Made by a program: the position numbers and the translations under genes
The notes under the pieces: model-generated
Told to the model about the DNA's origin: nothing
What the model saw: only the letters and a program-made list of their open reading frames with translations
The model's database searches: none
NCBI GenBank assembly: GCA_034670405.1
Contig: JAXDDX010000074.1
Coordinates: forward strand, 1-64,000
DNA: 64,000 nt
Direction of reading: 5' to 3'
Source: Hoplostethus atlanticus
Taxonomy: Eukaryota; Chordata; Actinopteri; Trachichthyiformes; Trachichthyidae
In this document: one piece after another, positions 57,378 through 64,000 of the stretch
Numbering within the stretch: position 1 is the stretch's first letter
How the letters are laid out: every line of letters starts with the position of its first letter

Positions 57378-59166
57378 AGCCTGCATCAGCCTGTAAATGT
57401 GCGTCACACACACATTGTTATTCTTCCCACACTCTGCTATTCAGTTAGACTCCAGTCCAAAAGTCTCAGCGGTGGAGTTGCATGTTCCCACTCTGTCTCT
57501 TGCTTCCGGCCACACACACACACACACACATACACACAGGCATGTGGGCTGTGAAGGCATGCACACACACACACACTGCAATCTGATTTCCAATTTTTAA
57601 TCAAACACACACACACACACATAACAGTTGTCACTAGCTGGGTGAACAGATTGCAGTAGCTTAGCTGGCATGGAGGGTCATGAACTCCCTCCACGGGGCA
57701 TCAAAACTGGGATGCGAGCCAGTGAACTCTCCCTTCCTCCTGCCATGTTGGACCTTTATCCTGACAGACCACTGCTGGATGATGCAGAGACACATATCGC
57801 CATGGTGATGGAGATGGAGACCAAATTAAACTTTAATAATCCAATTTCATCACTGCAGCAGTGATATCTGCTTCATGGTCCCTGGCATCATTTCCTAGAG
57901 GACAAAGTCAATGTTTGTCGTTACCGGCATAATGATTTTGAGCAAAGGAGGAAAATGCCATCTCTCAGAAATCTCTCATTGACGGCCAATCAGGACCCTA
58001 TCTGATTATTGAGAGGGACTTAGCATATGACTCATATCATTACCATCCTCCTCAATTCCACCGGTGCATTGCCATCCTGCAAGACATCGCCCACGTCGAG
58101 ACAGAAATGCATCATGGGAGGAAGGTCATCACCCAGAATCATTATGCCGGTAATTATTTAGAAAGTCCTCTCAGGGATTCTATCCAGAACCTGTGACGGG
58201 ATTTTATACTTTTCCCTTTTTTGCAAAGACAAAAAGAGGGCTGCTGTGCAAGGCAAGGGTGTTTAACTCACCCATAGTTTCTGGTTGATTCTAGTCTGAA
58301 TGGACAGCTGATAGCCCCAATCAGGAGCCGTTTAGGAGCACCCAGACTGGAAATCTTGAGGTGCAGCCAAGTGAAAAAAGAAAATCCATCTCAGTGTCAG
58401 TGTGCTGTTCTGTCTTGGCAAGGCTAGACACTAATGAGAAAGGAATATGGAGCCCCGTTTAAAAATAAATCTTGTGTACTTGCGTTTTTATTTCCAGACA
58501 TATCCAAATACATTTTTATCCCAGGTATTACCATCCAGTTGATAAAAGCAGACATGCCATTTATGCTGTATATGCATATGAATGATCATATACTCTTAAC
58601 AAAATGGGTTCTATGTACCAGGACATGGTGCTTTAGGTCTGTACCATAGTAGAACCCTATTTTAGAAAGGTTCTCTATTGCACCATGCTCAAATGATTCT
58701 AGAGAGGACCTTTAGGAATGCATGAAATGCTCCGAACCAGCACTAGAAGAAGTTTTAACTGGGTTATTTGTTCTGATGTGCCAGTGAGTTTTTTTTTGTC
58801 ATATCGGTTCTATATAGAGCCGTTATGACCAAACCAAAGAACCCTTGAGAAACCCTCCTTTTCTGAAGATATACGAGACAACGTTGGGTAAAACTGCTCC
58901 AGACTGACCATTTTCTCATGATGATTTCTTCATAAATCGGAACTTTAACTTGAAGAAGAATTTGTCATAGGATCTAATCTGCACGTAAGAAAGTTTAATT
59001 TATGACAACCCAGGTCTCTCTGCAATAACTTCTCTGTTAGACCTCAGCAAGATACTACATTATAGTTCCAAACACACTTTGAATACTTGTTGTATTCAAG
59101 TTTAAAGGTGCTGTGTGAAGCATTTTTAAACATCAGTATTATCAAATTAATTGTGATATCTTGGTA
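57031..59166. other. Intergenic, low-complexity then unique
   Basis: 57060-57240 is purine-rich (AGAG, GGGA). CA runs are at 57344-57375, 57511-57538, 57562-57576 and 57605-57622. 57660-58430 is non-repetitive apart from a perfect 17-bp inverted pair. 58590-58860 has GGTTCTATGTACC-like words. No exon supported. Confidence 0.5.
57921..58153. repeat. Perfect 17-bp inverted repeat pair, 199 bp apart
   Basis: TTACCGGCATAATGATT at 57921-57937 is exactly the reverse complement of 58137-58153. The 199 bp between is non-repetitive. No transposon-like flanking duplication was found. Confidence 0.85.
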
Positions 59167-59556
59167 CACTGTAAATTCTAATAGCTGTCATGACTTACAT
59201 AAATTAGTTAACTTTACTCGGTTATCAACAATATGTACTTCTTACTAGTTTTTATGAAGTTACAGTTAATTGCAGGGTGAAAAATACAATGTACTTATTG
59301 TTTTGAGCGAAGATAACTTTAAACAATCAAGTAGCAACAAAGGCTGGGGTGTGAGCATGCGCAATAGCCACGTTCAATCACTCTCTCCCGCTCAGGACAG
59401 GGTAGATTGGTGCCGACTTAGAGTGGAAGCTGAGGAAAGAAACAAACCGTTTGGATTTTGACCATTTCGTTATCTTTTGAAGAATAATAAGGTAAGTTAT
59501 CAAGCAAGCAATAATTGTGTGTGAATTGTTGTTTCTGACTGCTGCCAATGTTAGTT

Positions 59557-59804
59557 AGCGTTAGCTAACGTTTTTAGCTAGCGTTTTTAGCTAACGTTTT
59601 TAAGCTAACGTTTTTAGTTAACGTTTTTAGTTAACGTTTTTTAGCTAACGTTTTTTAGCTAACGTTTTTAGCTAACGTTTTTAGTTAACGTTTTTTAGCT
59701 AACGTTTTTTAGCTAACGTTTTTAGCTAACGTTTTTAGTTAACGTTTTTAGTTAACGTTTTTTAGCTAACGTTTTTAGCTAACGTTTTTAAGCTAACGGG
59801 CACT
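59557..59804. repeat. Subterminal array of TTAGCTAACG-type units
   Basis: About 18 units of 13-14 bp, TTTTTAGCTAACG or TTTTTAGTTAACG, partly organised in a higher-order pattern (two TTAAC units then several GCTAAC units). Each unit carries a palindrome, TTAGCTAA or GTTAAC. Its position about 390-640 bp inside the CACTG end suits a transposase-binding subterminal repeat. Confidence 0.9.
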
Positions 59805-60252
59805 GCACAATATTCGACTGGCAGAACTTGTTCAGGCATGTTTTGGCGGTATAGCTTTTTCCCCTCTTCACCGAGTATTTTGATGTCAGAAATATTTATT
59901 TTATTGACATTTTAGATTTGTTTCCACTGAGATATTATTGAGTTTAAATAGTGAATTTGCTGTTGTAAACATTACTGGTGTTGCTCTAGAAACAATATTT
60001 ACTTATATTTAAAATATAAATCAATTCTAACCCTGTTCTGAATTTGGATTACTTCAGATCATAGCGCTTACTTCATCAGTGAGCATATTTGTTTCACTTT
60101 TCCACTTGCTAATGTCTGAGTGTACTGTGAAAAACTACAAGCTGTGTTGTTTTTTTATAATAATGTAATGATAATGGTTCAAAATTATGTGAAAATGCAT
60201 AGTTTTCAGTCAAATAACATCAAATTGTCTTGGGGGAGAAGCACTAACCCCC

Positions 60253-60287
<35 letters not shown>

Positions 60288-60612
60288 TGTTGAGGCCCTT
60301 CTGGTGAGTTAATTAGTTAACTCTCAAAGTGCACCAGATTGATGCATTTAACTTTAAAATGTACAAAATTTTCTTCCGGGGGACCATGCCCACTACTGCT
60401 AAATTAAGACAGAGGAAATGCTGTTTTTGAATTGTCTTTATGACTGAGGCCTCAAATAGATATTTATATAAATATATTTACATTCATATCAAAAAGTATT
60501 TTCCTGTAATGCCTGTAAAGCATGCACATATCAAGGAATGTGTCTCTAATCTACAAACCACAACACTAAGTGGAACTTCCTTTTAACTAAAAAAATTCTT
60601 TGTCCTTTTCAG

Positions 60613-60693
60613 AAGAAGTGCTCGTGGCGGCAACTGCCTAAGGGCTCTTCACTGAACAGCTGCTTCGTCAACGCGGGCCTCAGTACACTGGAG
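60613..60693 (+). other. Candidate leader exon of the CACTA transposase
   Basis: Acceptor TCCTTTTCAG ends at 60612 and donor GTGAGA starts at 60694. The 81 bp is an open set of 27 codons (KKCSWRQLPKGSSLNSCFVN and AGLSTLE) that would join in phase to the ATG at 60860. It may be coding or 5' UTR. An earlier exon ending at 59490 (donor GTAAGT) may precede it. Confidence 0.45.
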
Positions 60694-60859
60694 GTGAGAT
60701 GCCAGTAGCCTATATTTTGGAGGATATTTTGGATTCAGCTTAAGGAGTTATAACCAGCAGTAGAGCAGTTTTTGACAAAGTGTTCACTATGCTACACTTT
60801 AATTAGAATTAATTTGAGAGACTATCCTTAAAATCTCCACTTAAAATCATTCCTTGCAG

Positions 60860-63292
60860 ATGCAGTGGACCTGTAAGCAGTGCATTTTTTCTGCAGACAA
60901 AAGAGGACAGTTGTTAAAACACTATCGCCTAAAACATGGAGGCTTCACTCGGCAACAGCCAATATCATGTCTTCATGAGGATTGCTTGTGCACTTTCAAA
61001 TCTTTTAATGCACTCAAAGTGCATTTATCTGTTTGGCACTCTCAATCAGACATTGGGCAAGCAAGTAAACCCACAGTTGCGTTTCACTGCCAGATATGTG
61101 AATACATAGAGCCCTGCACTGAAGCTGAGTTTTTCACACACTTACGCAGCCATTTAAAACTTAAACAAAGAGTTCTATGTCCATATGAAGGCTGTCATTT
61201 CCAGAGCAATGTATATTCAACGTTTAATGCACACAAAAGTAAAGTACATAGTGGGAGTGCTACAACGCAATTTAAAACTGCAATAATATCAAACATTGAA
61301 CGTCCAGATCAGCTGACTGAAGTGGAGGAAGAGGTTTCTTTACAGGATGACATTGAGTGTGAGTTTGAGGAGTCTGTAGATGACATACAGGACTTGGAAA
61401 TTCAGCTGGAACGTAACCTGGCTGCACTATTTTTGAAAATGCAAACAATCCTGCACATATCCGAAAGTGCTGCACAAGAAGTAATTCAGCAGATTAACCA
61501 GATCCATTTACTTTCACAGCCATTACTACAAAGTGCAGTCCAGAAGATTATCAGTCAGCATTGTGGTGATGTGGATAATTCCATAGTGAGTGACATTGTA
61601 AGTGTAGTTACACAAAGTAATGTCCTGCTGAAATTCACCAATACAGGAGGATCCCTATCAACAGCTGGCAGGAGAGCATCTTATATACTGCGAGAATTTC
61701 CAGTTGTTATGCCAGTTGAGTTTCTTCTTGACAGAGATAGTTCTGTTGTATATGTCCCCACACTGAAAATGCTGCAGGCTTTGTTAAGCAATAATGATAT
61801 TTTGGATAAGGTGCTGCGTGTAGAGACTATTTCATCAGAAGGATACCACTCATTCAGAGACGGCTCTCATTTCAAAGAAAATGTTCTTTTGAATGTGGAA
61901 GAATTTAGGATTGCTCTTGGGCTATATTTAGATGATTTTGAAGTGGCTAATCCACTGGGAACATCCAAGAAAAAACACAAACTATGTGCCGTATATTGGG
62001 TACTTGCTAATCTTGACTCCAAATATCGGTCAGCTCTTCACTCTATTCAACTTGCACTTTTGTGTAAGGTTAACACTGTGAAAGAACATGGCTATGCAGA
62101 AGTTCTTCGTCCTCTCATTCAGGATCTTGCAACTCTTGAGGAACATGGTGTGTATGTTGAACAACTAGCAGAAAGTGTTAAAGGCACTGTATTGTATGTA
62201 GCAGCGGACAACTTGGGGGCTCACTCTTTGGCAGGATTCCAGGAGAGTTTTGCAGCAGATCACTGTTGTCGGTTTTGTATGTGTAAGCGAGATGACATAC
62301 AGGATAAGGAGGTCCGATCAGGTCTACACCAGCCAAGGACAAGAGAGAACCATGATAGACATGTGCAAGAGGTTATACATGACCATACTATGGCCAGACA
62401 TCTTGGTGTTAAAAGGGGGTGTCCATTGAATGAAAACTTGACAAACTTTCATGTGGTGGATGGTTTTCCACCTGACATTCTGCATGATTTTTTGGAGGGT
62501 ATAGTACCAGCAGAATTTTCACTATGTCTTCAGGATTTGATTACCAAGAAGTATGTTTCTTTGGACTCTTTGAATAAGGCTATTAGGCAGTTTCCTTACA
62601 CGTTTTCTGATAAAGCTGACCAACCACAGATCATTCCAAAGACCTTCATCTCTAAGAGAACCATTGGGGGAAATGGCCATGAAAATTGGTCTCTCCTGAG
62701 GCTGCTTCCATTGATGATAGGCCACAATATCCCAGAGGGAGACCAAACATGGGAGATACTGATGCTTCTAAAAGATATACTGGAGTTGGTAATGTCATCA
62801 CACTTTACTGAAGAGTTAATCCACTTCCTGGATTGCAAAATCTCAGAACATAGAGAGTTACTGCAGAAAACTTTTCCGAACTACAAACTTCGTCCAAAAC
62901 ATAATTTCATTGAACACTACCCTCAAATGATAAAAACCTTTGGCCCACTAGTAGATGTATGGACGATGCGTTTTGAAGGGAAGCACAAATTTTTCAAAAA
63001 GGTTGTACATGACACTTGTAATTTCAAGAATGTAGCACATACCTTGGCTGTAAGACACCAGAAGATGATGGCCTTCCATTTAGATTCCTCAACATTCTTC
63101 AAGCCTCCTTTGGAAATTTATAAAGTGAGGTCAGTTATGGTCACATCTTTCCCTGAAAATGTTCAGAGTTCGCTACATCAGCGAAATGCCAAGCAAAATA
63201 CAGTGCTGGTTGCATCTTCTGCATGTGTTCATGGTGTTAAATACAGTGCAGATATGATCATTTCAGTTGACAGTTGCTCAGGTCAGGTCTGA
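60860..63292 (+). CDS. C2H2 zinc-finger CACTA/EnSpm-like transposase
   Basis: Single open frame of 810 codons; ATG at 60860 lies directly after a splice acceptor (CCTTGCAG), so it is the first codon of the last exon. Residues 3-131 hold four C2H2 fingers (CKQC..HYRLKH, CLHEDC..HLSVWH, CQIC..HLRSH, CPYEGC..HKSKVH), likely for DNA binding. After an acidic segment (155-180) comes an RNase H-like core in the order seen in plant tnp2 transposases: GLYLDDFEVANPLG (first Asp about 358-359), YVAADNLGAHSLAGF (Asp450) followed by a CCRFCMC zinc knuckle (469-475), DILHDFLEG (542-543), EHYPQMIKTFGP (686-697) and MRFEGKHKFFK (Glu706). These would catalyse excision and integration. No stop or frameshift breaks the core. 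The C-terminus seems cut by a frame change at about 63280, since about 75 further coding-like residues follow in another frame. Family placement rests on motif order. Confidence 0.8.
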   Translation: MQWTCKQCIFSADKRGQLLKHYRLKHGGFTRQQPISCLHEDCLCTFKSFNALKVHLSVWHSQSDIGQASKPTVAFHCQICEYIEPCTEAEFFTHLRSHLKLKQRVLCPYEGCHFQSNVYSTFNAHKSKVHSGSATTQFKTAIISNIERPDQLTEVEEEVSLQDDIECEFEESVDDIQDLEIQLERNLAALFLKMQTILHISESAAQEVIQQINQIHLLSQPLLQSAVQKIISQHCGDVDNSIVSDIVSVVTQSNVLLKFTNTGGSLSTAGRRASYILREFPVVMPVEFLLDRDSSVVYVPTLKMLQALLSNNDILDKVLRVETISSEGYHSFRDGSHFKENVLLNVEEFRIALGLYLDDFEVANPLGTSKKKHKLCAVYWVLANLDSKYRSALHSIQLALLCKVNTVKEHGYAEVLRPLIQDLATLEEHGVYVEQLAESVKGTVLYVAADNLGAHSLAGFQESFAADHCCRFCMCKRDDIQDKEVRSGLHQPRTRENHDRHVQEVIHDHTMARHLGVKRGCPLNENLTNFHVVDGFPPDILHDFLEGIVPAEFSLCLQDLITKKYVSLDSLNKAIRQFPYTFSDKADQPQIIPKTFISKRTIGGNGHENWSLLRLLPLMIGHNIPEGDQTWEILMLLKDILELVMSSHFTEELIHFLDCKISEHRELLQKTFPNYKLRPKHNFIEHYPQMIKTFGPLVDVWTMRFEGKHKFFKKVVHDTCNFKNVAHTLAVRHQKMMAFHLDSSTFFKPPLEIYKVRSVMVTSFPENVQSSLHQRNAKQNTVLVASSACVHGVKYSADMIISVDSCSGQV

Positions 63293-63521
63293 GTTCCGGC
63301 AAATAACACATATTGTTGTGATCAACACAGAAATCCTGTTAGTCTGCAGCCTTTTGACCTCATGGTACGTTGAACATTTACGTGCTTATGGGTTGTGCTT
63401 CAGTGGGGGAGGGTCTCTCACAGTCACCCAGCTGTCCGAGCTGAATGATGTTTTCCCCTTATCCTCCTACCGAGTGAAAGGCAATGTGTATGTGACACTA
63501 AAGCATTACATATTATGCTGA
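63284..63521 (+). pseudogene. Out-of-frame C-terminal segment of the transposase
   Basis: Directly after the stop at 63292 a different frame encodes SEFRQITHIVVINTEILLVC, SLLTSWYVEHLRAYGLCFSG, GSLTVTQLSELNDVFPLSSY and RVKGNVYVTLKHYILC, ending at TGA. The coding-like composition, short distance and lack of its own start suggest it was once the end of the 810-codon ORF and was separated by a small indel near 63280, where CAGGTCAGGTC is locally duplicated. A splice event is the alternative. Confidence 0.55.
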
Positions 63522-63567
63522 ATGACAGTATGTGGATGGGCACTTAAGTGATATTCACTCTTTCTAG

Positions 63568-64000
63568 GACCATGGAAAGCTATAAACTAAGAGTCATCAT
63601 AACTGAACAGGACATACGGAAAGTGTCACTGGATGGAAAACCAGAAACGGTTGAAGAGCTGAAGATAAAAATCAATGAAAAAATGCAAGCTGCAGTTACA
63701 GTATGACTTCAGTCTTATGTATGAAGACCCTGACTTCGATAATGCCCTCAGCAACCTTGATGACATAGGAGACTTGCCAGCTACAAGAGCTACTGTTGAA
63801 GGTCATTCCATTGGTTGACACTGGTACCTGCCTCCACCAGCAGCATGTCTGATGCCTCCAATGCCTCGTGATACAGAATTTGTCCACACAAAGTCATATC
63901 ATCAAAAACAAGAGCGATGGCCAAGTTTTTTGAATTCCAATTTCTCGTTGATGTGGATTCGACTGAGACAGCTAATCTTCATGTCTAAACCAAACATCCT
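63568..64000 (+). pseudogene. SAMD3-like protein with PB1/ubiquitin-like start, frameshifted, partial
   Basis: Acceptor CTCTTTCTAG ends at 63567; ATG at 63572 starts MESYKLRVIITEQDIRKVSL and ETVEELKIKINEKM, then a frameshift near 63690, then LQYDFSLMYEDPDFDNALSN, LDDIGDLPATRATVE, another shift, VIPLVDTG, and later ERWPSFLNSNFSL and RLRQ. The order (beta-grasp/PB1-like segment, DPDF-NAL-L-DI-DLP, then WP-F) matches fish proteins annotated as sterile alpha motif domain-containing protein 3-like. At least three frame changes within 430 bp indicate decay. It follows the transposase by about 280 bp on the same strand and continues beyond the window. Confidence 0.6.

Follow-up and report, generated by a model that had tools for sequence, protein, structure and literature searches.

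The transposon at the end of the window

The window analyzed here is a 64,000-nucleotide stretch of the genome of Hoplostethus atlanticus (C74:1-64000 of a 632.8-Mb genome). A CACTA-type transposable element starts at position 59167 and runs past the end of the window. It carries the gene of a zinc-finger transposase of the DDE type and, downstream on the same strand, the beginning of a second gene, called SAMD3-like here. This name comes from an earlier note on the same DNA; we take the SAMD3-like family of fish to comprise proteins with an N-terminal PB1 or SAM domain, a shared body, and a C-terminal domain. The features of the element are as follows.

59165..59166, +, left copy (TA) of the target-site duplication (TSD); right copy at C74:70539-70540, outside the window
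59167..64000, +, window portion of the CACTA-type element (11,372 bp in total); remainder to C74:70538
59167..59184, +, left terminal inverted repeat CACTGTAAATTCTAATAG, starting with CACTG; partner at C74:70538 on the complementary strand
59167..59491, +, terminus and putative leader exon 1; GT donor AAG/GTAAGT at 59492, from splice letters only
59560..59800, +, minisatellite (unit type GCTAACGTTTTTA), within leader intron 1 (putative)
60613..60693, +, leader exon 2 (putative), bordered by AG and GT; from splice letters only
60636..63450, +, tandem duplication unit of 2,815 bp, 99.6% identical to C74:64751-67565
60860..63292, +, transposase open reading frame (ORF) of 810 codons, C2H2 and DDE type; fingers N-terminal; D358, D450, C470xxC473, H681x4H686, E706
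63300..63521, +, remnant of the transposase C terminus in another frame; tail lost from the ORF by a frame change
63572..63689, +, SAMD3-like gene, coding exon 1 (N-terminal half of the PB1 domain, by its C139 homologue); ATG 4 bases past an AG acceptor, frame then lost
63670..63780, +, PB1 exon, continued in a different frame; frameshift, then stop
63912..63950, +, W exon, initial part (ERWP...), truncated; placed by eye against the C139 gene, end approximate
C74:67651-67818, C74:68067-68150 (with a stop) and C74:69167-69487, later exons of the second gene, outside the window and inside the right terminus

The CACTG terminus that the earlier note had placed at 59167 is present at that position. 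The inverted copy that it had proposed to look for beyond 64000 was also found (...CTAATTAGATTTTACAGTG, last base C74:70538). The dinucleotide TA stands on either flank, and the element is therefore 11,372 bp long. The left 234 bp matched 24 places in the genome, partial matches included, and 19 loci of this family were examined, namely, the window element and 18 further stretches. Both ends were recognized by a strict pattern in 15 of them, and the other four lacked one end by this pattern. All 15 two-ended copies have a 2-bp TSD (9 TA, 3 TG, and 3 CA), and a 3-bp TSD was found in none. Fourteen of the 15 are nonautonomous copies of 2.7 to 3.3 kb that share both ends and are without the transposase.

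Further copies with the two genes between like termini, which the earlier note had suggested searching for, were obtained from three other contigs. The C139 element (L031:514-8445, 7,932 bp) and the C372 element (9,160 bp) each hold both genes between their termini, and the C263 element (approximately 7.4 kb, CACTG termini) holds the transposase but, of the second gene, no more than the final two exons. The TSD is TA in all three, and CACTG...CAGTG was found at both ends of these elements as well as of the 15 two-ended copies of the window family, C74 among them. For a third lineage, at C150, element termini were not found. The window copy itself is decayed, with a truncated and tandemly duplicated transposase and a broken second gene. 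The second transposase copy (C74:64751-67565) sits within the second gene and ends at the same place as the first; the duplication is either real or an assembly error.

Structure of the two genes and of the putative leader

The earlier note had described an intact 810-codon ORF with C2H2 fingers and an RNase H-like domain. The ORF is there, but it is not full length: the relatives at C263 and C139 run approximately 75 to 90 codons beyond it, and the C-terminal tail lies in the other frame downstream. The N-terminal C2H2 fingers gave Pfam matches under the cut-off. Six transposases spanning three lineages, two of the six being the tandem copies of the window, were aligned, and D358, D450, C470-x2-C473, H681 or H682 with H686, and E706 were conserved in all six. 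From their order, these are probably the catalytic residues. According to one report, the CACTA/EnSpm (CMC) group is recognized by a DDE domain in which the second D and the last E enclose C(2)C and H(3-4)H motifs (PMC12730594). By this alignment, the transposase bears that group's signature, D...D...C(2)C...H(3-4)H...E. The Pfam matches of the transposases lean in this direction too, all of them under the curated cut-offs. A single-sequence fold prediction of the window transposase was worthless (mean pLDDT, the predicted local distance difference test score, of 33.5).

As for the second gene, a same-strand SAMD3-like gene exists as the note had claimed, but not as a single intact ORF, the gene being broken and most of its exons lying beyond the window. 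A tblastn search with the W exon gave no further piece of the rest of that exon in the C74 copy. The C139 copy is whole in kind, with frame changes. Its exons lie downstream of the transposase on the same strand and have mostly GT/AG-like borders: first the PB1 exon, then the long W exon, a pair of short ones, and the last exon. At C122, PB1 and W are joined in one open frame of 316 residues. The PB1 domain was matched with E values of 4.7e-4 (C139) and 0.011 (C226).

In the C372 element, the first exon of the second gene is SAM-like; nine near-identical copies of this C372-type second gene were observed. Other SAM-like heads matched SAM_TNK with E values of 2.4e-4, 3.2e-3, and 0.012, and C372 itself with 0.15, all under the curated cut-off. 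The last exon of C372 was similar to those of the PB1 type (pairwise blastp E values of 1e-10 and 3e-9), and its body was similar to that of C226 (pairwise E value of 3e-5). Downstream of the third-lineage transposase (C150), half of a SAM_1 domain (E value of 0.19), a related last exon, and, by eye, body-like parts were found. The second gene thus encodes a PB1, SAM-like, or SAM head at the N terminus, followed by a central body and a C-terminal domain that are both conserved. No recognized DNA-binding domain was found in the body.

The ratio of nonsynonymous to synonymous substitution rates (dN/dS) was calculated between families. For the SAM-type body, it was 0.33 between C127 and C96 (bootstrap 95% interval of 0.24 to 0.49; no replicate out of 200 reached 1), and the median was 0.112 between C372 and C120 (0.06 to 0.18; 139 of 200 replicates usable, dS near saturation). 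For the transposase, C139 against C263 gave a median of 0.109 (170 of 200 usable, dS near saturation). The SAM-type second gene is thus under purifying selection between families. The pattern fits a gene that is required for spreading and free to decay once inserted.

Splice-compatible leader exons, another claim of the note, were borne out by letters only: there is a donor at 59492, an exon with AG...GT borders at 60613 to 60693, and an acceptor immediately before the transposase ATG at 60860. A comparable acceptor precedes the second gene, the ATG of which lies 0 to 4 bases past an AG with a pyrimidine tract in six of the eight copies looked at (C74, C139, C122, C226, C372, and C152), or four of six distinct families; it is less clear or absent in C392 and C381.

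The subterminal repeat array reported in the note is real at the 5' end (TTTTTAGCTAACG). The first 1,500 bp of the C74 element contain AACGTT 16 times against a shuffle mean of 0.7, and the 5' leaders of the other lineage A elements contain it three times (C263; shuffles, 0.57) and six times (C139; shuffles, 0.45). AACGTT was not clearly enriched in C372 (3 versus 1.26). In that element, GAATTTACTG occurs three times in the 5' 1,500 bp, not at all in the middle, and four times in the 3' 900 bp, with shuffle means of at most 0.03. A general AAGTWA subterminal motif was also tried and was rejected as weak and uneven.

Separately, part of the C372 transposase ORF recurs within the 5' subterminal array of its own element (L032, approximately 870 to 970 and 2770 to 2870). 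This repeat could be passive, or it could be a source of self-matching RNA.

Pairing of the transposase with the second gene

Three transposase queries were searched against the genome: the full-length window transposase (64 matches; best 56 of 455 candidates scored), the C139 transposase (59 matches; best 52 of 460), and a stretch of 137 residues from the window transposase (150 matches; best 150 of 198). The queries for the second gene were the PB1-type last exon (140 matches), the PB1-type W exon (118), the SAM-type body (44), and the third-lineage last exon (26). After merging, 133 transposase clusters and 219 loci of the second gene were obtained. For 89 of the 133 clusters, a same-strand locus of the second gene lay no more than 12 kb downstream. 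In the control positions, the counts were 1 (same strand, upstream), 3 (opposite strand, upstream), and 3 (opposite strand, downstream). Chance neighborhood of the two genes was rejected on these controls of strand and side. Smaller sets gave similar results, with 32 of 40 transposases paired among close transposases with the PB1-type queries (other positions: 1, 1, and 2) and 50 of 59 paired when all lineages were included (other positions: 1, 3, and 2).

The three transposase lineages, approximately 30% identical to one another, each carry their own type of second gene. Of the 59 transposase loci of all lineages, 14 are accompanied by the SAM type and 4 by the third type. For 19 distant transposase loci, 30 to 34% identical to that of the window, the PB1-type queries found no partner at all (0/19). 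With the SAM-type and third-lineage queries, 16 of the same 19 loci were partnered (12 and 4, respectively), and the idea that the distant families are without the second gene was rejected for these 16, the PB1-type queries having been of the wrong type for them.

The earlier note had proposed that the SAMD3-like family, usually annotated as host genes in fish, may be the accessory protein of this transposon. Since both genes lie within the termini of the C139, C263, and C372 elements and the second gene follows the transposase at 89 of 133 clusters, the proposal is supported as to gene content. That the SAMD3-like gene is a transposon gene in this genome is thus well supported.

Proposed role of the second gene and relation to known systems

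We consider it quite probable that the element in the window is a decayed copy of a two-gene, cut-and-paste transposon of the CACTA type, in which a zinc-finger DDE transposase is accompanied by a downstream, same-strand SAMD3-like protein that would self-assemble and serve as a TnpA-like accessory. For its expression, one 5' leader would perhaps be alternatively spliced either to the transposase exon or to the exon of the second gene, yielding both products. The second protein would then assemble head to tail through its PB1 or SAM domain. Both domains are capable of such assembly, which the sequence of the second gene alone does not show here. Once assembled, the protein would bind the subterminal repeats and pair both ends for the transposase; it may also, or instead, counter silencing. 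In this proposed accessory function, it would be the counterpart of TnpA in maize En/Spm.

Rather unlikely, in our estimate, is the alternative that the second gene is a true transposon gene with a host-side role (antisilencing, chromatin, or nuclear import) or a repressor of the transposase, instead of an architectural protein that binds the ends. It would agree with the body being free of recognized DNA-binding domains, and the PB1 and SAM domains say only that self-assembly is possible. In addition, the second protein of plant Spm also controls promoter methylation, according to the accessible part of one report (PMC1636069). The subterminal repeats common to both ends, at least in C372, nevertheless call for a binder, although this could be the transposase itself, through its C2H2 fingers. 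Far less probable is the explanation that SAMD3-like genes belong to the host and either were taken up by these transposons, on one occasion or on several, or are their neighbors by chance. In its favor, no transposase was found at 129 of the 219 loci of the second gene or at 25 of the 60 that two or more of the four queries hit (the other 35 have one), and two lone last-exon matches on C68 and C4 could be host genes. It is opposed by the three lineages each paired with their own type, by the position and strand of the partner (89 of 133 against 1, 3, and 3), and by the loci without a transposase themselves: 14 of the 129 sit inside two-ended nonautonomous copies of the window family, five others have near-equal scores, as in a multicopy set, and the orphan at C226 has transposase pieces upstream.

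A nested or fused pair of unrelated transposons, one with the transposase and the other with the SAMD3-like gene, would suit the rearranged, tandemly duplicated window copy. This is the least credible of the explanations, as the C139, C263, and C372 elements are each bounded by one matching pair of termini and one TSD around both genes and the same gene order recurs at 89 clusters. A last possibility is not a biological rival: the element may belong to an already catalogued fish EnSpm family, the second ORF of which is known to repeat curators, with the SAMD3 link absent from open papers. Zebrafish EnSpm-N1, -N4, -N6, and -N7_DR are indeed catalogued, as the accessible part of one report lists them (PMC3485254), but nothing on a link between SAMD3 and transposons was found in the open literature as far as its titles and abstract openings reach, and we regard this possibility as unlikely.

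Several results weigh against a two-gene transposon with a TnpA-like accessory protein. The splicing scheme and the function of the second gene are inferred. Transposase_21 (tnp2, PF02992) matched three of the six transposases (best E value of 0.034) and Plavaka (PF18759) two of the six (best E value of 2.4e-4), both under the curated cut-offs; the C139 transposase had no Pfam match at all. The PB1 and SAM matches are all under the Pfam cut-offs too, and searches of solved structures by sequence gave no convincing relative. The C139 W exon showed no similarity to the C372 body (best E value of 3.1), and the homology of the bodies therefore rests on C226 and the last exon. With dS saturated, no dN/dS was obtained for the PB1-type gene between families, and near-identical copies gave uninformative values of 0.28 to 2.2 on very few changes. 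A motif shared by both subterminal regions is clear in C372 only, the array of the window family being restricted to the 5' end.

Missing partners belong to the same side of the balance. No second gene was found for 44 of the 133 transposase clusters, some of which are fragments, and this includes a multicopy group of eight with 33 to 34% identity (C90, C5:2425300, C19, C63, C21:89779, C106, C291, and C985), which may lack it. The 129 loci of the second gene without a transposase, of which 104 were matched by one query, and the 25 multiquery ones also count here. Only the best candidates were scored, and missing partners may therefore be unscored or decayed. Apart from the 14 loci in nonautonomous copies, C226 is the only orphan that was read, and broken transposase pieces, 22 to 63% identical and most of them approximately 50%, lie directly upstream of it; the idea that an orphan SAMD3-like gene is a host gene was rejected for C226 alone.

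No host SAMD3 was identified in this genome: none of the 91 listed SAM_1 matches (best 150 of 200 candidates) is followed by a SAMD3-like locus on its own strand within the next 30 kb. Lone last-exon matches with 32 to 33% identity were observed at C68:1772182-1772415 and C4:3833879-3834169; these are candidates and could be host SAMD3-like genes. The five loci with near-equal scores and without a transposase are C1:7411874, C116:111036, C125:1199251, C21:4034266, and C91:744102. Judging by the scores, they are perhaps a multicopy derivative in which the second gene was kept and the transposase lost.

Among the closest known systems is maize En/Spm, which has CACT termini, subterminal repeats, and, in plants, a 3-bp TSD. 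Like En/Spm with its TnpA and TnpD, the fish element has CACT termini and combines a DDE transposase and a second protein. Unlike En/Spm, its TSD is 2 bp, the transposase has N-terminal C2H2 fingers, and the second protein is a PB1 or SAM domain with a SAMD3-like body, for which no homology to TnpA is claimed. The products of Spm arise by alternative splicing, as stated in the accessible text of the report on SmTRC1 of Schistosoma (PMC1636069). According to the same text, SmTRC1, described in 2006, has a CACTA-superfamily transposase with CxxC, 2-bp direct repeats in 7 of 14 copies, and two tandem ORFs in one cDNA clone, its accessory SmTRC-PrA being without detectable relatives in other elements (PMC1636069). 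The conserved CxxC, the 2-bp end repeats, and the two genes are thus shared with SmTRC1 and related animal and fungal CACTA elements. The difference is that the accessory gene here, SAMD3-like, is recognizable across three lineages.

A PB1 domain is also tied to a DNA-transposon protein in the MUSTANG B genes of plants; these reportedly belong to the MULE superfamily and, unlike the present gene, are fusions of PB1 to a domesticated transposase. The fungal EnSpm, ESTA, and Plavaka elements carry a TET/JBP dioxygenase and have a CMCT-clade core and a TSD of 2 or 3 bp, as far as the accessible text shows (PMC12730594). They share with the fish element the C(2)C and H(3-4)H motifs that separate the second D from the last E as well as the carriage of an extra protein, but that protein is an enzyme there and a SAM/PB1 protein here. 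Plavaka termini, given in that text as TGT..ACA or CATCA..TGATG (PMC12730594), differ from the CACTG..CAGTG found here. Zebrafish EnSpm-N6_DR and other fish EnSpm elements are, in the part of the source available, short nonautonomous copies for which no coding partner is described (PMC3485254); they are set apart from the present element by description, not by sequence.

In titles and abstract openings, with Repbase and most subscription papers outside the search, no link was found between SAMD3 or SAMD3-like genes and a transposon, a transposase, or domestication, nor between CACTA or other DNA transposons and SAM or PB1 domains. The kind of transposon itself is already known, and it has here a recognizable second gene common to three lineages. 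This conserved SAM/PB1 accessory gene offers a way into the question of how the ends of CACTA elements are brought together in animals, and it makes the ancestry of vertebrate SAMD3 directly testable.

According to the earlier note, fish SAMD3-like genes are usually annotated as host genes. They may often be parts of mobile DNA and not ordinary genes, which for fish at large is a prediction. If they are annotated in this way, many gene models and expression or association hits would be those of transposon genes. Vertebrate SAMD3, from which the family takes its name, has a SAM domain and probably a body of this kind, and it is a single host gene in mammals. Tentatively, and as an idea that we find credible without holding it to be probable, the whole SAMD3 and SAMD3-like family could descend from the accessory gene of a CACTA-type transposon. 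The body would be an end-recognition or antisilencing module fitted at least twice with a polymerizing head (PB1 in one lineage and SAM in others), and vertebrate SAMD3 would be a domesticated accessory protein. This would parallel RAG1, whose source is a transposase of the CMCT clade, except that SAMD3 would stem from the partner gene.

Some further observations concern the copies of the window family. The target dinucleotide is pyrimidine-purine in all 15 two-ended copies. In many of the nonautonomous copies of approximately 3 kb, the last exon of the second gene is still open, at 95 to 97% identity, which probably reflects youth and not function. Finally, two left ends of the family stand head to head approximately 2 kb apart at C3:222961-223198 and C3:225284-225521.

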